A stretch of DNA of 64,000 bases from Chloroflexota bacterium (GCA_015478725.1 JADMIG010000010.1:1-64000), one strand, 5' to 3'; counted from the first letter of the stretch, positions 10,068 through 22,633 are shown. Notes: generated by a model from the sequence alone, not told the origin. Numbers and translations: made by a program.

Positions 10068-11156
10068 ATGTCAGGATCAACATCGGCACGGCCCATCGAG
10101 CCTGCGAATGCGCGGCGATGGAGTGCGCGCCATCCGACCATTGGTGACGTGGCGCGACTCGCACGCGTATCTGCCATCACCGCGTCCCGGGTGGTCAACG
10201 GAAGCGTGCATGTCCGGCCGGAGACCCGCTCGCGCGTGGTAGCCGCGATCGAGGAGCTCCACTACCGCCCGAACGAGCTTGCCCGAAACCTGAAGACGCG
10301 ACGATCCCACGCAGTGGGTCTCTTGATTGACGTTTCCAACCCGTTCTATGCGGCTTGCGCCACCGGCGCGGAGAGTGTTCTTCGGGAACGGGGCTACGCC
10401 TTGATCCTTGCGTCTTCGCGGCCGAGCGCAGCCGAGGAGGAAGCGACGGTCGAACTATTGGGCAGCTACCAGGCCGACGGCCTCTTGATCGTCCCGACAG
10501 TAGGGTCGTATGAGTTCCTGGCTCGGCTACCGTCCGGTCAGCCTATCGTCGCTCTTGACCGTCCGTTCGATAGATTCGCTACCGATGTCGTTCTCGTCAA
10601 GAACTACGAGGGGGCACGCACAGCAGTAACGCATCTCCTCGGGCATGGCCGCGAGACGATCGCATTTGTCGGGGCAGACGAGACGGCATACACGACTCGG
10701 CTCCGCCTCGACGGGTACACCGATGCTGTCCGTGCTGCCGGCGTCCCGGACCTCATTCGGCTTGGTGCGATGGACGTCGCCGCGGCAGCATCAATCGCCC
10801 GAGAGCTCATTCACGGTGCGGATCGGCCGTCTGGGTTCTTCGCGATGAACAACCTGATCACGGTCGGGGTCCTTGAGGCGATAGCCGAGGCGGGTCTCCG
10901 GGTTCCGGACGACATCGCCGTGGTCGGCTTCGACGACGTCGTTCTGGCCGACGTTCTCCATCCGCGTCTGACAGTCGTCCGCCAGCCAGCCATGGAGATG
11001 GGGCGGCGCGCTGCCGAGCTCCTTCTGTCGCGGCTCTCCGGACACGAGCCAAGCCAACCCCAGACGATTCTCCTCGACGCGGAGCTCCTGATACGAGAGT
11101 CGTGCGGCTGCACCTCCGACCAGCAAGGCGGCGACACAACGAGAGGTGCGATATGA
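10068..11156 (+). CDS. LacI-family transcriptional regulator
   Basis: This 362-residue repressor is predicted to bind the TGNTANCG-type sites near its own and neighbouring genes. Its helix-turn-helix (TIGDVARLARVSAITASRVV) is followed by the hinge YRPNELARNLKTRR, whose leucine normally intercalates at the central CG of the operator. The effector-binding core has NPFYAACATGAESVLRERGY, FAMNNLITVGVLEA and VVGFDD. Two in-frame ATGs precede the domain (10050 and 10068); 10068 is favoured because 10050 would place operator C inside the gene. The stop overlaps the RuBisCO-like gene by 4 nt, so repressor and enzyme are coupled. Confidence 0.9.
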   Translation: MSGSTSARPIEPANARRWSARHPTIGDVARLARVSAITASRVVNGSVHVRPETRSRVVAAIEELHYRPNELARNLKTRRSHAVGLLIDVSNPFYAACATGAESVLRERGYALILASSRPSAAEEEATVELLGSYQADGLLIVPTVGSYEFLARLPSGQPIVALDRPFDRFATDVVLVKNYEGARTAVTHLLGHGRETIAFVGADETAYTTRLRLDGYTDAVRAAGVPDLIRLGAMDVAAAASIARELIHGADRPSGFFAMNNLITVGVLEAIAEAGLRVPDDIAVVGFDDVVLADVLHPRLTVVRQPAMEMGRRAAELLLSRLSGHEPSQPQTILLDAELLIRESCGCTSDQQGGDTTRGAI

Positions 11157-12586
11157 GAGCCAACGTGGCCACGGATCGGACGCTGGACATCCTGTGGATG
11201 GATCTCGACGAACGAGAGGCGGAACTTCGCCGGCTGGTCAAGGACGTTCTCGAGGAGAATCCTCCGCCGAGCAACCCGGACGCGGTCGTGGCCACCTACT
11301 TCCTCGCCCTTCGCTCGAAATCGCTCAAGCAGGCGGCAGAGGAGATCGCGTACCACGCGACAAGCGGGATCCACAACCCGCCTGCCGGCACCCTCCTGCA
11401 AGCATGCACGGGCTGGGCGGTCGGCACGATCCCGTTCGATTCCACCGGTCGGATCGGCCTACTGCACATGGCCTTTCCGGTCAAGATGCTCCTCCAGGCG
11501 GACGGTCATGTAACGAGCACCGACCTGCTTCACACGGTCGCGGCCGCGGTCATCTTTGACGTCTACGAGAACCAGGACGCTCGTCTCGTCGCTTTGACGA
11601 TCCCATCCGAGGTCCTGCGGACCTTCCCCGGCCCAGCTCACGGGGTGGCAGGTTTCCGATCCCTTGTCAGCCTTCCCGCAGGCGCGCCTGCGTTCGGGAC
11701 CATCCTCAAGCCGACGGCCGGGCTGACACCTGAGGATGTTGGCGCACTGGTCTCGCAGATAGCGGCGTCGTCGTTGTTGTCCTTCGTCAAGGAAGACGAG
11801 GACCTCTACCCGAACCTCCCGTACGCGCCGCTCCGACAAAGGACCCGGCGAGCAATGGAGGCGATCGAATCTGTCAGGTCCGAGCGGCCAGAATCCCTCC
11901 TGTTTGCACCGCATATCACAGGGTCGCCGGGGGAGCTGCTCGCGAACGTCGATGGCGCGCTCGAGGAAGGGGCTCGAGCCGTGATGTTCAGCGAAAGCTG
12001 GGCGCTGGGGGGCGTTCGACTCACTCGAGAACACACCCGACATCTGATTCGACCCCCTGCGATCTACGGACACAACGCAGGGATCGGCGTGCGCACGCGG
12101 GGGATCTGGCGCGAGGTCATCGACCTCCTTGCGCGACTCGACGGCATCGATTTCCGGCAGACGGCTCCGCTTTGCGCGGGTCCGCCATTCCTGCGTCCAT
12201 ATGGAGACGAATGGCGCGCGTCAGAATGGATTCTGGCGGCTCCACTCGCGGGGATACGGCCGACGGTCGTCGTCCGTGCCGGCGGGCTCGATCAAGGCAA
12301 CATCGGTCCGAACCTGCGGGACGTTGAGGACCGCGGGATCGTCGACAACGTGCTGTTCCTCGCGGGCTCAGCCATCAACTCGATCAAGGACCGCACCGGA
12401 CACCCGAGCCCAAGCTTGGGCGCCGAAGCGATGGTCGAGGCGATCGAGGTGCATCGATCAGGTGTGCTCCGGGACGTGTCTATCGATGATCACCCACGCG
12501 CGCTGCTCGGGGTCGCGCGCGGGCGTGGGGGCGGGCTGAGGGCGCTCGCTCAGGCCCTTCCGCAGCGCTACCCCGCCCTGCGCTGA
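11153..12586 (+). CDS. RuBisCO-like protein (form IV-type large-subunit homologue)
   Basis: This 477-residue protein has the RuBisCO large-subunit fold but not a full carboxylase active site. GTILKPTAG keeps the lysine equivalent to spinach Lys175 (Lys186 here) but has Thr for Lys177. FVKEDED keeps the carbamylatable lysine and two acidic metal ligands (Lys213, Asp215, Glu216). The asparagine of the GN motif near RuBisCO residue 123 is absent, and the C-terminal phosphate loop is RAGGLDQGNIGPN/LAGSA instead of SGGIH/GGG. Known relatives act as enolases, isomerases, or decarboxylases/transcarboxylases on phosphorylated sugar acids. Being between a LacI regulator and a PfkB kinase suggests sugar or sugar-acid catabolism; the reaction is unknown. 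ATG at 11153 has GAGAGG upstream and overlaps the regulator stop. Confidence 0.9.
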   Translation: MRANVATDRTLDILWMDLDEREAELRRLVKDVLEENPPPSNPDAVVATYFLALRSKSLKQAAEEIAYHATSGIHNPPAGTLLQACTGWAVGTIPFDSTGRIGLLHMAFPVKMLLQADGHVTSTDLLHTVAAAVIFDVYENQDARLVALTIPSEVLRTFPGPAHGVAGFRSLVSLPAGAPAFGTILKPTAGLTPEDVGALVSQIAASSLLSFVKEDEDLYPNLPYAPLRQRTRRAMEAIESVRSERPESLLFAPHITGSPGELLANVDGALEEGARAVMFSESWALGGVRLTREHTRHLIRPPAIYGHNAGIGVRTRGIWREVIDLLARLDGIDFRQTAPLCAGPPFLRPYGDEWRASEWILAAPLAGIRPTVVVRAGGLDQGNIGPNLRDVEDRGIVDNVLFLAGSAINSIKDRTGHPSPSLGAEAMVEAIEVHRSGVLRDVSIDDHPRALLGVARGRGGGLRALAQALPQRYPALR

Positions 12587-16224: not shown

Positions 16225-16974
16225 TCAGAGCGCCTGACTCCCCCCGACGACCTCGAAGGTGAGGCGCGCCCGGAGCCGGGCGAGGGCGGCGAGGACCGGC
16301 GCGCCGGCGACGACCACGAGGATCCCGTTGCCGACCGCGCGGAACGCGTCGTACGCGAACGAGGTCACGAGGTAGAACCGGCCGAACCGGGCGATCGTCT
16401 CGCCGAGCGGGGCGCCGGGCACCCAGCCGAGGTCCGGTGATCCCGCGAAGAACGTCCAGTCCCAGACGTCCATGAGCGCACCGAAGGCGAAGCCGGTGAC
16501 CACCCCCACGGCGGCGAGGAGGACGAGGTCGCGACGGCTCGGCGCGGTCGTGAGGCGCCCGCCGACCACTCCCGCGGTGACGCCGACCCATCCCGCCGCG
16601 AACAGCTGGTACGGCAGCCACGGCCCGACGCCGCCGGTCGCGATCGCCGAGACGAGCATCGCGAGCGCGCCGGCCTCGAACCCGAAGGCCGGTCCGAACA
16701 CGTAGCCGGCACACAGGATGAGGAAGAAGATCGGGCTGAATCCGCCGATCCCGGACACGAGGGCGAGCCGGAGCGCCGCGTCGATCGCGGCGATCGCCGC
16801 CAGGAGCGCGAGCGCCCGCACATCGAGCCGGCGGGCGCCGAGCTCGATGAGCAAGAGCCCGCCGAGGGCCCCGAGCGCGACGGCGATCGCCGGGCTGTCC
16901 GACGGCATTCCGGCGCCGGCGAACGGCCAGAGGAAGAGGGCGAGGCCGCCGAGGGAGAGGATCACGAGCGTCAT
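16225..16974 (-). CDS. ECF transporter substrate-binding (S) component, probably for cobalamin
   Basis: This 249-residue integral membrane protein has about six hydrophobic segments. FSPIFFLILCAGYVFGPAFG and GPWLPYQLFAAGWVGVTAG are typical of the ECF S-component class that includes cobalamin transporters. It binds the vitamin and topples in the membrane during uptake. The start at 16974 overlaps the ATPase stop by 4 nt. It is the last gene of an operon led by a cobalamin riboswitch, which is the basis for predicting a B12 or corrinoid ligand. The extra-long frame upstream on this strand is a shadow of the ATPase gene. Confidence 0.85.
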   Translation of the reverse strand: MTLVILSLGGLALFLWPFAGAGMPSDSPAIAVALGALGGLLLIELGARRLDVRALALLAAIAAIDAALRLALVSGIGGFSPIFFLILCAGYVFGPAFGFEAGALAMLVSAIATGGVGPWLPYQLFAAGWVGVTAGVVGGRLTTAPSRRDLVLLAAVGVVTGFAFGALMDVWDWTFFAGSPDLGWVPGAPLGETIARFGRFYLVTSFAYDAFRAVGNGILVVVAGAPVLAALARLRARLTFEVVGGSQAL

Positions 16975-18581
16975 CGGCGGACGAGGAGGCCGTGGCCGGG
17001 GGCCACGTCGTCGCGGCCAAGGACGTCGCCGCGCTCGAGGGCGCCGAGGCGTTCGAGGACGTCGCGGACCGCGACGGGACCGCCCGGGTAGAGCTGGCCG
17101 ATCTGTGTCGTGTGGCGGCTCGGGGAGGAGAGGGAGCGGTCCGGCGGGCCGAGCTCCACGATGCGGCCGTCGGCGACCTCGACGACGCGGTCCGCGATCT
17201 CCGCGGCGAGATCGAGATCGTGGGTCGCCACGACCACCGAACCGCCGTCCGCCCGGAGTCGGGCGATGAGGCGGCCGATCGCGTCGCGGGCCGGCCGGTC
17301 CATCCCGCGCGTCGGCTCGTCGAGCAGGGCGAGCCGCGGCGAACCGGCGAGCACGGCCGCGATGGCGCCGCGCTGCCGCTCGCCGGCGCTCAGGTCGCGT
17401 GGGTAGCGCTCGGCGAGCCGGTCGAGGCCGAGGTCGGCGAGGATCGCCGTCGCCGGCTCGCGGCTCCCACTCCGCCTGAGCGTCAGCTCCACCTCGGCGC
17501 GGAGGGTCGGTCGATGGAGGAGGGACGTGGGGTCCTGGGGAACATACGCGGCGCGGCCCGCGGCTCGCTCGAGACGGCCGGCGAGCGGCGGGAGGAGACC
17601 GGCGAGTGTCCGCAGGATCGTCGTCTTGCCGCCCCCGTTCGGGCCGACGAGGACGACCACCTCGCCGCCGTGCCCGGCGAGATCGACCCGATCGAGGACG
17701 ACCGTTCCGCGCGGGCCGAGGCTCGCCGCCGTGAGCGTCCAGGCAACCGGTCCGCCGGACGTCGAACCTCCGGTCGGGGCCGGGTCGGCGAGCCGCGGCG
17801 CTCGCGCTCGGGCGGCCTCCACGGTGAGCGGCAGCGGCGTCCAGCCGAGCCGGAGTCCGAGCTCGACGATCGGCGGCGGTGATGCGATCCGCCCCGACCC
17901 AGCCGCCGCCGCGGCGGACACGTGCTCGACCCGGCCATGATCCACGAGGAGGACCCCGGACGCCGCCGGCAGAAGGCGCTCGAGACGGTGCTCGGCCACG
18001 ACGACGGCGAGACCGCCGGCCGCAAGCTCGATACAGGCCTCGACGACGGAGGCCGCCCCGGCCGCGTCGAGCTGCGAGGTGGGCTCGTCGAGGACGAGCA
18101 GTCCGGGTCGCGGGGCGAGGGCGGCGGCGAGGGCGACGCGCTGTCGCTCTCCGCCGGACAGCGTCGCGACCCGCCGGTCGCGGAGGTTGGGGATCGCAAG
18201 CCGCTCGAGCGACTCCTCCACCCGGGCGTGCATCTCGGGTGCTGCGACGCCGAGGTTCTCGAGGCTGAATGCGATCTCCCGCTCGACGGTTCCGTAGACG
18301 AACGACCGCTCCGGGTCCTGGAAGACGAAGCCGACGTGCGTCGCGAGGTGGCGTGTCGGGGTGACGATGACGTCGTGACCGGCCACCGTTGCCGTGCCGG
18401 CGATGCGGCCGCCGTGGAACTGCGGCACGAGTCCGTTGAGCAGGCGGAGGAGCGACGACTTGCCGCTTCCCGAGCCGCCGGCCACGATCGTCAGCCCGGC
18501 ACCGATCTCGACGGATACGGCATCGAGGGCCGGATCGACGCTCCCGGGATACCAGTAGCTCAGATCGTCGAGGCGGACCAT
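16971..18581 (-). CDS. ECF transporter ATPase with two fused ABC domains (A-A')
   Basis: This 536-residue protein fuses two ABC ATPase domains that in many ECF transporters are separate polypeptides. Domain 1: Walker A GGSGSGKSS, signature LSGGERQRV, Walker B LLVLDEPTSQLD. Domain 2: Walker A VGPNGGGKTT, signature LSAGERQRG, Walker B LALLDEPTRGMD. The start ATG at 18581 (MVRLDDLSYWYPG) gives a normal ABC N-terminus. It couples to the T component through EcfT motifs and overlaps both neighbouring genes. Confidence 0.92.
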   Translation of the reverse strand: MVRLDDLSYWYPGSVDPALDAVSVEIGAGLTIVAGGSGSGKSSLLRLLNGLVPQFHGGRIAGTATVAGHDVIVTPTRHLATHVGFVFQDPERSFVYGTVEREIAFSLENLGVAAPEMHARVEESLERLAIPNLRDRRVATLSGGERQRVALAAALAPRPGLLVLDEPTSQLDAAGAASVVEACIELAAGGLAVVVAEHRLERLLPAASGVLLVDHGRVEHVSAAAAAGSGRIASPPPIVELGLRLGWTPLPLTVEAARARAPRLADPAPTGGSTSGGPVAWTLTAASLGPRGTVVLDRVDLAGHGGEVVVLVGPNGGGKTTILRTLAGLLPPLAGRLERAAGRAAYVPQDPTSLLHRPTLRAEVELTLRRSGSREPATAILADLGLDRLAERYPRDLSAGERQRGAIAAVLAGSPRLALLDEPTRGMDRPARDAIGRLIARLRADGGSVVVATHDLDLAAEIADRVVEVADGRIVELGPPDRSLSSPSRHTTQIGQLYPGGPVAVRDVLERLGALERGDVLGRDDVAPGHGLLVRR

Positions 18582-19399
18582 CGTCGACCGATGAGCGGGG
18601 CCGCGAGGAGGAGGATGGCGCCGATGAGGACGGGCTCGACCGCGGGTGCGACGAGCGTGGGATACGGCCGCCAGTCGAGCGACGCGCCGGCGATCCGCCC
18701 GACGATGAAGCAACCGGCCGCCGCGATCGCCGCGACGACGACGAGCGCGTCGCCCCGGTTCCAGCGGCCCGGCGCGTAGCGCGTCCGCGGTCCGCTCCCG
18801 AATGCGCGCGACTCCATCGCCTCGGCGAGGCCGAGCGAATCCTCGATCGCACCGAGCATCGTCGGGACGAGGATCTCCGCCCATGACCGGGGGCCGCGAG
18901 GTCGCCAGCCGCGCATCGTCTCGGCGTCGCGGATGGCGACCGCGCTCCGCCCGATCGCCGGGGCGAGGTTGAGGGCGGACGCGACGACGAGGGCGCTCCG
19001 CTCGAGGCCACGGGGCAGGGCGTCGACGAGCTCGTGGGTCTCGAGGACGAGCGAGATCGGCGCCACCGCGAAGACCGCCCCGGCGATCCCGAGTCCGGCG
19101 GCGAGGCCGTACGCCGCCGCCTCCAGCGTGATCGGACCGCCGAGGAGGGGCCAGTCGACCGGCATCTCGACGAGGACATGGGTCCCGGTGTGGCTGAGCG
19201 CGAGGTTGAGACCGACGGCGAGGACGCCGATGACGACGACGACGGTGATGAGGGGTCGGAGCGACCGTGACGGCGGGACGAGGGCGAGCAGGACGTCGAC
19301 GCACACGAGCAGGAGCGTCGCGCGATAGACCGGGTCGTTCGTGGCGAGATCGACCGTGAGGGCAGCCGCGGACCAGACGACGACGACGCGCGCGTTCAT
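18560..19399 (-). CDS. ECF transporter transmembrane (T) component
   Basis: This 279-residue membrane protein bridges the ATPase and the S component. It has several hydrophobic helices and the two cytoplasmic coupling motifs of EcfT, RDAETMRGWRP and AEAMESRAFG. The ATG at 19399 overlaps the upstream secreted-protein gene by 4 nt; its 3' end overlaps the ATPase gene by 22 nt. Order in the operon is toroid, DUF4430-like, T, A-A', S. Confidence 0.9.
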   Translation of the reverse strand: MNARVVVVWSAAALTVDLATNDPVYRATLLLVCVDVLLALVPPSRSLRPLITVVVVIGVLAVGLNLALSHTGTHVLVEMPVDWPLLGGPITLEAAAYGLAAGLGIAGAVFAVAPISLVLETHELVDALPRGLERSALVVASALNLAPAIGRSAVAIRDAETMRGWRPRGPRSWAEILVPTMLGAIEDSLGLAEAMESRAFGSGPRTRYAPGRWNRGDALVVVAAIAAAGCFIVGRIAGASLDWRPYPTLVAPAVEPVLIGAILLLAAPLIGRRWSASTI

Positions 19400-20301
19400 C
19401 GACCGCTCGCCCCGCGGCGGCGTGCGAGCGCGATCCCGGCGACGACGAGGACCGTGAACGCCGCGACGGCGAGGGCGACTACGTCCCACGAGGGGCCATC
19501 GCCAGTCGCTCCGCTGCCGGCCCCGGACGATCCGGCGTCCAGCAGTGGCGCGCCCGCGATTCCCGCTCCGCTGTTCCCCGCGACTCCCGCCGAGTCGGTC
19601 GCTGCTCCGGGATCGCTCGCTGGCGACGTCGCGGGACCGGTCGCGGCGCCTGTCGTCGTCGCCGGGGTGACGGAAGCGGTCCGCGTCGGGCCCGCGACCC
19701 CGCCGGCCGCCGGGCGAGCGGTCGACGGGGCGACCGTCGCCGATGGCGCCGTGGTCGCGGGTGCCGATGTGAGCCGCGGCGGGGTCGGACCAGGCGTCGG
19801 GCCCGGCGTCGCGTCCGGACAGTGGCCGGGTGCGTCCGGCGGGGCGGCTGTCCCCGACTGCGGGTCATAGCGGAATCCCTCGGCGTCGCCATCGCGGAGA
19901 CGCAGGCTGCTCACCCCCAGGCTCGAGAGGCTCCACGACGCCCCGCTCCGAGCCACGAAGATGGCCCAGTAGGAGCCCCCTGTCCCGAAGCAGCTCGAGG
20001 GGTACGTGGCCGGCTCGCCATCGAGCTGGCAGACGGCCTGACCGAACCCGCCGAATCCCTCCGTCGCGTATCCGATGCCGCTCGAGGCGAGGGCGTCGAT
20101 CCCGGAGATCGCGTCGGTCGCGAAGCCGACGCAGGCGGTCACGATCGTCCCGTCGCCGTGCTCGACGACGATCGCGACCCGATGCGAAGCGCCGGCCGCG
20201 GCGCACGCCGGCGGTCCGGCGCCGACCGGTGCAACGACGCCGAGGCCCGCGACCGCGACCGCGACGAGGCAGCCGCCGAGCCGGCGTCCGAACCGGGTCA
20301 T
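19396..20301 (-). CDS. Secreted membrane-anchored DUF4430/transcobalamin-C-terminal-like protein
   Basis: This 301-residue protein has a signal peptide (MTRFGRRLGG then a hydrophobic core, about 1-35), a small beta-rich domain (about 39-150), a long Pro/Thr/Ala/Ser-rich linker and a C-terminal membrane segment (about 273-292) with an RRR stop. In the beta domain, SGIDALASSGI, YWAIFV and LRLRDGDAEGFRY match the transcobalamin C-terminal-like DUF4430 pattern. Four cysteines at 57, 91, 104 and 161 could form disulfides. Placement under a cobalamin riboswitch between the toroid gene and an ECF importer suggests surface corrinoid capture. The domain call is by pattern only. Confidence 0.75.
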   Translation of the reverse strand: MTRFGRRLGGCLVAVAVAGLGVVAPVGAGPPACAAAGASHRVAIVVEHGDGTIVTACVGFATDAISGIDALASSGIGYATEGFGGFGQAVCQLDGEPATYPSSCFGTGGSYWAIFVARSGASWSLSSLGVSSLRLRDGDAEGFRYDPQSGTAAPPDAPGHCPDATPGPTPGPTPPRLTSAPATTAPSATVAPSTARPAAGGVAGPTRTASVTPATTTGAATGPATSPASDPGAATDSAGVAGNSGAGIAGAPLLDAGSSGAGSGATGDGPSWDVVALAVAAFTVLVVAGIALARRRGASGR

Positions 20302-22325
20302 GCGCGGCGCGGTCGGCGGAGCGCGAGGATCGAGCCGAGGATGGCGGCGAGGATCGCGACGATCCACCCCGGTCCCGTGGTCGAGGTCGCCGGCGGCGCG
20401 ACCGTCGAGGTGGGCGGCGGAGTCGATCCGCCGGGCGGAGTCACGGCCCCGGGGCAGGCCCGTCCCGGGACCGCGAGGCCGGACGTCCAGCGGTCCGTGC
20501 CAGGGAACGGCACCCGCTCGAGAGCCATCGGGACCTGGCTCGTGGTGAACGCGTCCGGTGCGGTGTTGCCGGGGAAGACGAAGCCGCCGTTCGTCGCCTG
20601 GTGGCGGACGATGTCGTCGAGCAGGGTGTGACCGCCGATCGTCCAGCTTGGGGCGGTCGGCGACTCGCGGAGCGCCGTGAGCGCCTCGAGGACGAGTGCG
20701 TCCGAATCCGGGTCGCTCGTCGCGCCCGGTCCAGCCCGGTAGGGGAACCCGCCGTCCGCACCCTGCTGGCGGTGGAGCCAGGCGAGTCCGGCCGCGACCC
20801 GACTGCGGTCGCCGACGGCGGCGAGCGCCATGAGCGCGATCGCCGTCGAATTCGTGTCACCGGCCGTCCCGTTGGCGACGGCCTGGTAGTTCCAGCTTCC
20901 GTCGGTGCCCTGGAGACCGTTCAGGTGGGCGACGGCGGCGGCCGGCACCGGTCGGCCGGTCCCGGTGAGGGTGAGGATCGCGAGCGACTGGCCGAATGTC
21001 GAACCGTCGCCGTACCTGCCGGTCGCCGGATCGTAGAAGCCGTCGAGTCGGCCGAAGAGGTCGCGACCACCGAACGTGCCCGGGTTCCAGCGTCCGGCCA
21101 CGACGGCGAGGATGAGCTTCGCTGTGGATCCCGCGTCCGCCGTGACGTGGTCGACAGCCGAGGCGAGGTAGCTGTACGACGACCGTCCGCCGCATGTCCG
21201 AACAGTCGACGGGTCGTAGCCGGCGGCCGCCGCTCCGAGGAGGAGATCCTCCGTCGCGCCGGTCGAGCCGTCCAGCGAACCGTCACTCTTCAGCGCGCCC
21301 TCGAGATAGCGGAGCGCCGCTGTCGCGCGACTGCTGTACGTGGTGAGGCCCGCGCCGGCGGCGAAATGGCCCACCACGGGCAGCGGCGCCTGGGCGAGGC
21401 CCTGCGGCACCTCGCTCGTGGTGAACGTATCCGGGGCGGTCTTGCCGGGATAGTGGAAGCCGCCGCTCGCGGCGTCCTGGAAACGCAGGAGGTCGCCATA
21501 CGGCGTGGCCGTCCCGACGGTCCAGGCCGGGCCGGCCGCGTCGGCTCCGAGCGCGGCGAGGGCCTCGAGGACGAGGGCGTCGGAGTCCGGATCGCTCACG
21601 GCACCGGCCCCACCCTGGTAGGGAAAGCCGCCGTCCGGCTGCTGGACGCTGTGGAGGTAGCCCGTGGCGGCGGTGAGGGGGGCAGAGGTCGCCACGCGAC
21701 CACCGGCCACGAGGGCCATGATCGCCACGGCGGTCGAATTCGAGTCGCCGCCGAGCGGGGCGTCCCTGAAGCCGGTGTAGTTCCAGCTGCCGTCGCCATC
21801 CTGGGCCGCGACGAGCGCATCCAGCGCTCGGGTCGGGAGCGGCACGTCCGGCGCCGCCGCGCCCGCGAGGGCGAGGATCGCGAGTGCCTGGGTGAACGTC
21901 GACCCGTCGCCGAAGTGGCCGCTCGTGGCGTCGTATGCCGCGCCGAGGCGGGCGACGAGGTCGAGGCCGCCGAAGGTCCGCGGGTCGCGTCCGCCGGCGA
22001 TGAGGGCGAGGATGAGCTTGGCCGTCCCGCCGGCGTCGGCCGTGGCGGCGGGGAGCCTGGTCGCGAGGTAGTCGAACGGCGTCTTCCCAGCGGTCGACGT
22101 GAGGGTCGCCGGATCGTAGCCGCTGGCGGCCGCGCCGAGGACGAGGTCCTCCGTCTCGCCGATCGAACCGTCGAGAGAGCCGTCGGCCGCCTGGTGGGCC
22201 GCGAGGTAGCTGACGGCCCGCGATCCGGGGTCGACCTGGGCCCGGGTGGCCGGGGCGAAGACGAAGACGGCGAGGAGAGCGGAAGTGGCCAGTATCGCGC
22301 TGGCCCTGCCCGTTCGGGCACGCAT
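20298..22325 (-). CDS. Secreted membrane-anchored double alpha/alpha-toroid protein, intrinsic-factor/transcobalamin-like
   Basis: This 675-residue protein has a signal peptide (1-30), two tandem toroid halves (about 31-335 and 340-620), a Pro/Thr linker and a C-terminal membrane anchor (GWIVAILAAILGSILALRR). Each half repeats the same landmarks: DGSLDGS.GxTEDLxLGAAAxGYDP, a TAKLILA segment, DGSTFxQxLAIL, DGSWNY, DGGFPY and DPDSDALVLEAL. The repeats resemble prenyltransferase/squalene-cyclase-type and transcobalamin alpha domains. No terpene-cyclase DxDD motif is evident, which argues against a cyclase. GGAGG precedes the ATG at 22325. It is the first gene after the cobalamin riboswitch, so corrinoid binding outside the cell is the best inference. 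Confidence 0.78.
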   Translation of the reverse strand: MRARTGRASAILATSALLAVFVFAPATRAQVDPGSRAVSYLAAHQAADGSLDGSIGETEDLVLGAAASGYDPATLTSTAGKTPFDYLATRLPAATADAGGTAKLILALIAGGRDPRTFGGLDLVARLGAAYDATSGHFGDGSTFTQALAILALAGAAAPDVPLPTRALDALVAAQDGDGSWNYTGFRDAPLGGDSNSTAVAIMALVAGGRVATSAPLTAATGYLHSVQQPDGGFPYQGGAGAVSDPDSDALVLEALAALGADAAGPAWTVGTATPYGDLLRFQDAASGGFHYPGKTAPDTFTTSEVPQGLAQAPLPVVGHFAAGAGLTTYSSRATAALRYLEGALKSDGSLDGSTGATEDLLLGAAAAGYDPSTVRTCGGRSSYSYLASAVDHVTADAGSTAKLILAVVAGRWNPGTFGGRDLFGRLDGFYDPATGRYGDGSTFGQSLAILTLTGTGRPVPAAAVAHLNGLQGTDGSWNYQAVANGTAGDTNSTAIALMALAAVGDRSRVAAGLAWLHRQQGADGGFPYRAGPGATSDPDSDALVLEALTALRESPTAPSWTIGGHTLLDDIVRHQATNGGFVFPGNTAPDAFTTSQVPMALERVPFPGTDRWTSGLAVPGRACPGAVTPPGGSTPPPTSTVAPPATSTTGPGWIVAILAAILGSILALRRPRRA

Positions 22326-22424
22326 GAGCGGTCCTCCAGCGGCGGTGCGATCCACCTGCCGATGGGGGGCCCTGCCACGGGAGCCTCCCTTCGCCGATCC
22401 GCGCAGGCGGGGGGAATCAGGCCG

Positions 22425-22590
22425 CCATGGACCGGGTCTCCTGACTCGCGGATCGACGCTTCGGGCCGCCTTCCCGGGTGGATGAGACCCAGTGGCAGAT
22501 GGCCGGTCGCTCCCCGCTCACAGTTGCGCGACAGTGCCGGATTCGCACCGGCTTCCCCGTCTCCGAGCGGCTCTTCGGTTGTCCGCGGAT
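22425..22590 (-). ncRNA. Cobalamin (adenosylcobalamin-type) riboswitch
   Basis: On the minus strand the conserved core GGTGCGAATCCGGCACTGTC (22549 to 22530) is followed directly by GCGCAACTGTGAGCGG. The B12 box AGTCAGGAGACCCGG lies further down (22446 to 22432). These are the diagnostic cobalamin riboswitch elements in the right order. The aptamer ends about 100 nt before the toroid gene start, so it should control the five-gene operon down to 16225, with repression when cobalamin is plentiful. I could not fix the exact ends or choose between transcriptional and translational control. Confidence 0.95.
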
Positions 22591-22633
22591 GATAGTCCGC
22601 GGCGAGGCGCGGTGTTGTGCGCCGACGGGACGC

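Follow-up and report, generated by a model that had tools for sequence, protein, structure and literature searches.

A transcobalamin-like clade of SLBB domains, fused to alpha/alpha toroids, was described by Burroughs et al. in 2007 from operons that also contain CbiO and CbiQ and from hosts without key enzymes of B12 synthesis, and the Gram-positive SLBB/toroid surface proteins were predicted to scavenge B12 and to have been transferred to animals (PMC1796856). Separately, CbrT has been demonstrated to import B12 and cobinamide (PMC5997447), and in Lactobacillus a protein carries the annotation "additional lipoprotein component of putative cobalamin ECF transporter," in a paper that also describes a DUF4430 protein encoded beside rtpR (PMC9963975).

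The locus analyzed here lies in a window of 64,000 nucleotides from a Chloroflexota bacterium and most likely encodes a cobalamin-repressed system for corrinoid capture and import. It shares with the system of Burroughs et al. a secreted beta-grasp domain and toroid, an operon with an ECF-type ATPase and T component, and the prediction that B12 is scavenged; the interpretation is thus not new in outline (PMC1796856). However, the toroid and beta proteins of the window are separate membrane-anchored polypeptides found in Chloroflexota (and Actinomycetota), the beta protein is missed by the DUF4430 model, the toroid is duplicated, and a riboswitch, a CbrT-type S component, and displacement of BtuFC are added to the picture. 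No earlier description seems to exist of the split, anchored branch in Chloroflexota and Actinomycetota, of its connection with CbrT, or of the displacement of BtuFC. With ECF-CbrT and CbrTUV (PMC5997447, PMC6593275), the locus has in common the S component family, EcfT, EcfA/A', and the B12 context, but it is a dedicated operon that encodes a fused ATPase of its own as well as two surface proteins, and the profile match of its branch to CbrT runs only through Bacillota intermediates. The Lactobacillus DUF4430 protein is likewise extracellular and assigned to a B12 ECF transporter, but it is a lipoprotein, is known by annotation alone, and is described without mention of a toroid (PMC9963975). 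Animal transcobalamin, intrinsic factor, and haptocorrin also combine an alpha/alpha toroid with a C-terminal beta domain, whose fold is matched here, but they are single soluble polypeptides, and the toroid of the window resembles cyclases more closely, both in sequence and in fold. Finally, BtuFCD fills the same riboswitch slot in relatives, but its binding protein and permease are unrelated to the system in the window.

An operon downstream of a cobalamin riboswitch

A cobalamin riboswitch aptamer (RF00174; positions 22417-22597, minus strand) was matched over the full-length model (1-189) with 101.5 bits (E = 3e-24) against a gathering score of 31.5 bits, and a covariance-model search found a single copy across the 3.45-Mb genome. 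Five minus-strand genes follow on the 3' side, encoding, in this order, a toroid protein, a beta protein, EcfT, a fused EcfA-A', and an S component. Because stop and start codons overlap at all junctions, we regard the five genes as one operon. This layout, in which two secreted, C-terminally anchored proteins precede the importer, is as given in a preliminary description of the window and is supported by RF00174, by Pfam and family models, and by hydropathy. A GGAGG ribosome site lies just 5' of the ATG, and folding of the leader RNA was no more stable than that of shuffled sequences. We note that the stop codon of an aconitase gene on the same strand is separated from the riboswitch by only ~36 bp (22598-22633), and the operon promoter must therefore sit in this gap or within the aconitase gene.

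Homologues of the operon were found in 24 related genomes. Wherever a related locus includes sufficient upstream sequence (21 loci), RF00174 lies directly 5' of the operon; the remaining 3 of the 24 begin at or near a contig end, and the recurrence of RF00174 at the same place is more than chance would give. The order of the five genes is conserved. The beta, EcfT, EcfA, and S genes occur together in 17 related loci; the toroid gene is a remnant in one of these (L048) and off the contig in another (L055). In L048 (7140-7600), where the riboswitch and the beta gene are present, all that is left of the toroid gene is its signal peptide, which runs directly into a tail-like end and may reflect a real deletion or an assembly collapse.

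Further, among 149 other genomes sampled from the phylum to which an Acidimicrobiia MAG belongs (Actinomycetota), 23 encode a beta homologue. All three ECF genes are present in 17 of the 20 loci that were fetched from this phylum, the toroid in 16, and RF00174 above the gathering score in 8. A lenient search of 11 more of these loci, which left out L087, returned nine weaker but correctly placed matches to the cobalamin clan (17.6 to 38 bits); the weakest of the nine, in L085, is not significant on its own. Of the other two loci, L098 gave only a fragment, located at a contig edge, and L083 gave no riboswitch match. The preliminary description had proposed a survey of co-occurrence with cobalamin riboswitches; such a riboswitch was found at each of the 21 related loci and at most of the Actinomycetota loci, in some cases at or below the gathering score. 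The arrangement also varies. In L101, the toroid-beta pair, on whose side the riboswitch lies, is divergent from the ECF genes; in L102, beta-toroid-beta comes after the riboswitch, and the fetched 12 kb contain no ECF genes; and in L179 (G092:C39), a second riboswitch and a second toroid gene are followed by an unrelated ABC system, the beta, EcfT, and S genes not being found in the fetched 8.5 kb.

The importer is related to CbrT through Bacillota intermediates

EcfT (18560-19399, minus strand) is a transmembrane component of the CbiQ family (PF02361, E = 1.8e-6). The fused ATPase EcfA-A' (16971-18581, minus strand; about 536 amino acids) contains two ABC_tran stretches (1e-49) and matches ECF_ATPase (8e-74), and the S component (16225-16974, minus strand) matches ECF_trnsprt (4e-7). 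We looked for a direct profile match between the S branch of the window and CbrT and found none: a profile of the Chloroflexota and Actinomycetota S components, searched against the PDB, listed folate S components alone, weakly, and not the solved CbrT structure 6fnp. The same branch matches the S family of the Bacillota operons (hhalign E = 1.4e-35 over 203 columns), and the latter matches 6fnp at E = 3.2e-29, with the next S component at 8e-3. We therefore place the S component of the window in the CbrT (B12) family via these intermediates. The Cbr names reportedly originate with Rodionov et al. 2009.

The beta protein has the predicted fold of a transcobalamin beta domain

By hydropathy, the beta protein (19396-20301, minus strand; 301 amino acids) starts with a signal-like hydrophobic stretch and has near its C terminus one hydrophobic helix with arginines behind it, which we take as its membrane anchor (19426-19482, minus strand; hydropathy 2.82). 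It resembles the SCO2322 family, whose model (SCO2322_fam) is matched by 18 of 20 relatives. SCO2322, like SCO2321, whose model is matched by the toroid protein below its cut-off, is listed by NCBI without an assigned function, and a literature search for the two names returned nothing relevant. The preliminary description had called the protein DUF4430-like. As far as Pfam is concerned, direct membership had to be abandoned, because PF14478 matched neither the window protein nor 19 relatives; in predicted fold, the likeness is upheld. A model of the 139-residue ectodomain (19807-20223, minus strand; mean pLDDT 90.4) retrieved from the PDB, at ranks 1-12, only 3u7z, transcobalamin, and haptocorrin (E = 1.9e-4 to 2.4e-2), with an unrelated protein at rank 13 (E = 0.11), in agreement with the transcobalamin-type domain originally suggested. 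TM-scores on the target were 0.74 for 3u7z, a DUF4430-like protein of Ruminococcus gnavus, and 0.60 for 5np4, the isolated human transcobalamin beta domain with cyanocobalamin. The model further has two extra strands (52-56 and 62-67) after a helix (41-47), as read from the predicted order of elements; a beta-hairpin insert after the helix is a feature of transcobalamin-like SLBB domains (PMC1796856). Comparison of the beta protein with the DUF4430 domains of Bacillota B12 operons gave a modest match (hhalign probability 55, E = 1.2e-4, 70 columns), and the Bacillota DUF4430 profile, when searched against the PDB, matched 3u7z best and reached haptocorrin and transcobalamin at E = 0.02.

The toroid protein is duplicated and nearer to squalene cyclases

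The toroid protein (20298-22325, minus strand; 675 amino acids) matches SQHop_cyclase_C (1e-9) and SCO2321_fam (3e-38, which falls below the cut-off of that model). Hydropathy indicates a signal-like hydrophobic stretch at the N terminus and, close to the C terminus, a single hydrophobic helix with arginines behind it; this helix, at 20319-20375 (minus strand; hydropathy 2.11), would be the membrane anchor, and its basic tail is kept in relatives. The protein contains two toroid copies with 51% identity and approximate boundaries at 21372-22235 (first) and 20442-21344 (second), both on the minus strand, whereas its orthologues carry one. The earlier account of a secreted, anchored alpha/alpha toroid is therefore sound in fold, signal, and anchor and needs correction in copy number. 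It went too far in equating the domain exactly with the barrel of transcobalamin: with a model of the second copy (mean pLDDT 94.3), which gave toroid fold matches, the nearest solved folds were squalene-hopene cyclases and prenyltransferases, rat transcobalamin appeared at rank 50 (E = 1e-4), and PF01122 did not match the toroid. As modeled, the domain has a generic alpha/alpha-toroid fold that resembles squalene cyclases more than transcobalamin. In L083, L084, and L085, from large actinomycete genomes, the toroids look circularly permuted relative to those of Chloroflexota, whose N-terminal repeats align at the C-terminal end of the former.

Proposed capture of cobalamin at the cell surface

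When B12 is scarce, the riboswitch would permit expression of the CbrT-type ECF importer together with the two tethered surface proteins. The beta protein, whose predicted fold is that of the C-terminal domain in transcobalamin and intrinsic factor, would capture cobalamin outside the membrane; the toroid protein would most likely close on the other face of cobalamin, as in transcobalamin; and the beta protein may then pass cobalamin to the S component for ATP-driven import. We consider the beta protein the likely B12 binder and the likely partner of the S component; the second half of the clamp would probably be the toroid. The complete arrangement, a two-piece membrane-tethered transcobalamin in which toroid and beta proteins close round B12 and dock on a CbrT-type S component, has in our judgment about an even chance of being correct.

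The forms found in Bacillota bear on this point. In a sample of 101 genomes from this phylum, that of G160 (a Ruminococcaceae MAG), DUF4430 occurs in 31, and 53 of 68 DUF4430 matches (25 genomes) lie on the strand of RF00174 and ≤7 kb downstream of it, where ~0.5% would be expected by chance. In the Bacillota operons, a large SLH-anchored protein in which a toroid and DUF4430 are fused is accompanied by a further DUF4430 protein and, in many cases, by an additional toroid; genes for EcfT, a fused EcfA-A', and an S component follow. Because the toroid is missing from some loci, capture by the beta or DUF4430 protein alone, which would bind B12 for the CbrT-type S component with the toroid as an auxiliary surface or wall protein that makes no contact with B12, is a serious rival, although we consider it clearly the less probable of the two. 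It would account for the minimal DUF4430-S gene pairs without a toroid (L158 and L160) and for the operons in which beta is present and the toroid is missing or a remnant (L048, L086, L087, and L089), and it is in keeping with the crystallization of the human beta domain alone with cyanocobalamin (5np4). It sits less well with the presence of the toroid beside the beta protein in most complete loci of two phyla and with the toroid-DUF4430 fusion of Bacillota, which resembles animal transcobalamin in joining the two domains in one chain.

If the two-piece clamp is correct, an ECF transporter would have gained an extracellular capture module, which ECF transporters normally lack, and the way in which the B12 carriers of animals were assembled would be shown by the fused form of Bacillota and the split form of Chloroflexota and Actinomycetota. 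Clamp halves that are naturally separate would bear on the acquisition of capture proteins by ECF transporters and on the origin of animal intrinsic factor. The proposal also offers a concrete role for the SCO2321 and SCO2322 families and joins the transcobalamin-like prediction of 2007 to the characterized CbrT importer.

The operon takes the place of BtuFC

RF00174 was present in 27 of 28 family genomes examined, usually as one copy. The riboswitch region was fetched from 16 family genomes that lack the operon, and in all 16 BtuF- and BtuC-like genes lie behind the riboswitch, Peripla_BP_2 and FecCD being confirmed by Pfam in two of these 16 loci. That either BtuFC or the toroid/beta/ECF operon fills the same riboswitch slot is the strongest functional argument for the proposed role, and the two occupants of one slot within one bacterial family provide a clean natural comparison. 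We note that one genome, G033 (L180), contains both the operon and a riboswitch-linked BtuFC-like set and is a possible replacement intermediate.

The source genome is a draft, 96% complete, and absences from it are not proof. It has no FecCD (BtuC-type permease) match genome-wide, which extends the initial remark that no BtuB or BtuF was in view to the whole genome for the BtuC/FecCD permease alone. There was also no match to CbiC or CobS, and the genome encodes a B12-dependent MetH. Corrinoid uptake, as first suggested for this locus, is thus favored by the riboswitch, the CbrT-family S component, the replacement of BtuFC in the slot of relatives, and the absence of matches to markers of B12 synthesis. 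The substrate could in principle be a B12 precursor or another cobamide (cobinamide or pseudocobalamin) and not cobalamin itself, given that riboswitch control is common to all these substrates and that CbrT also transports cobinamide (PMC5997447); we think this improbable, because the genome has no match to CobS or CbiC, so that the usual route for completing cobinamide would be closed, and because MetH needs a finished cobamide.

Two further readings depart from corrinoid uptake altogether. Squalene-hopene cyclases are the best sequence and fold matches of the toroid, which could suggest a secreted terpene-cyclase-like enzyme with no transport role. This is very unlikely, however, because DSNS and DTNS stand where the DVDD of class II cyclases aligns, so that the DxDD general acid motif is absent and cyclase function was rejected, and because the toroid is secreted, anchored, and encoded behind a B12 riboswitch, mostly alongside ECF genes. 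Equally hard to credit is a B12-controlled ECF importer for cobalt or nickel: EcfT matches CbiQ and cobalt importers are also under riboswitch control, but the S component is CbrT-like and not CbiM, for which reason we rejected a cobalt importer, and the genome has no match to CbiC, a marker of cobalt-using corrin synthesis.

Elsewhere in the window, a plus-strand gene at 11102-12586 encodes a RuBisCO-like protein (RuBisCO_large, 7e-15), which lies in a sugar-catabolism-like cluster with genes for an ABC transporter, a LacI-type regulator, an aldolase-like protein, and a kinase.
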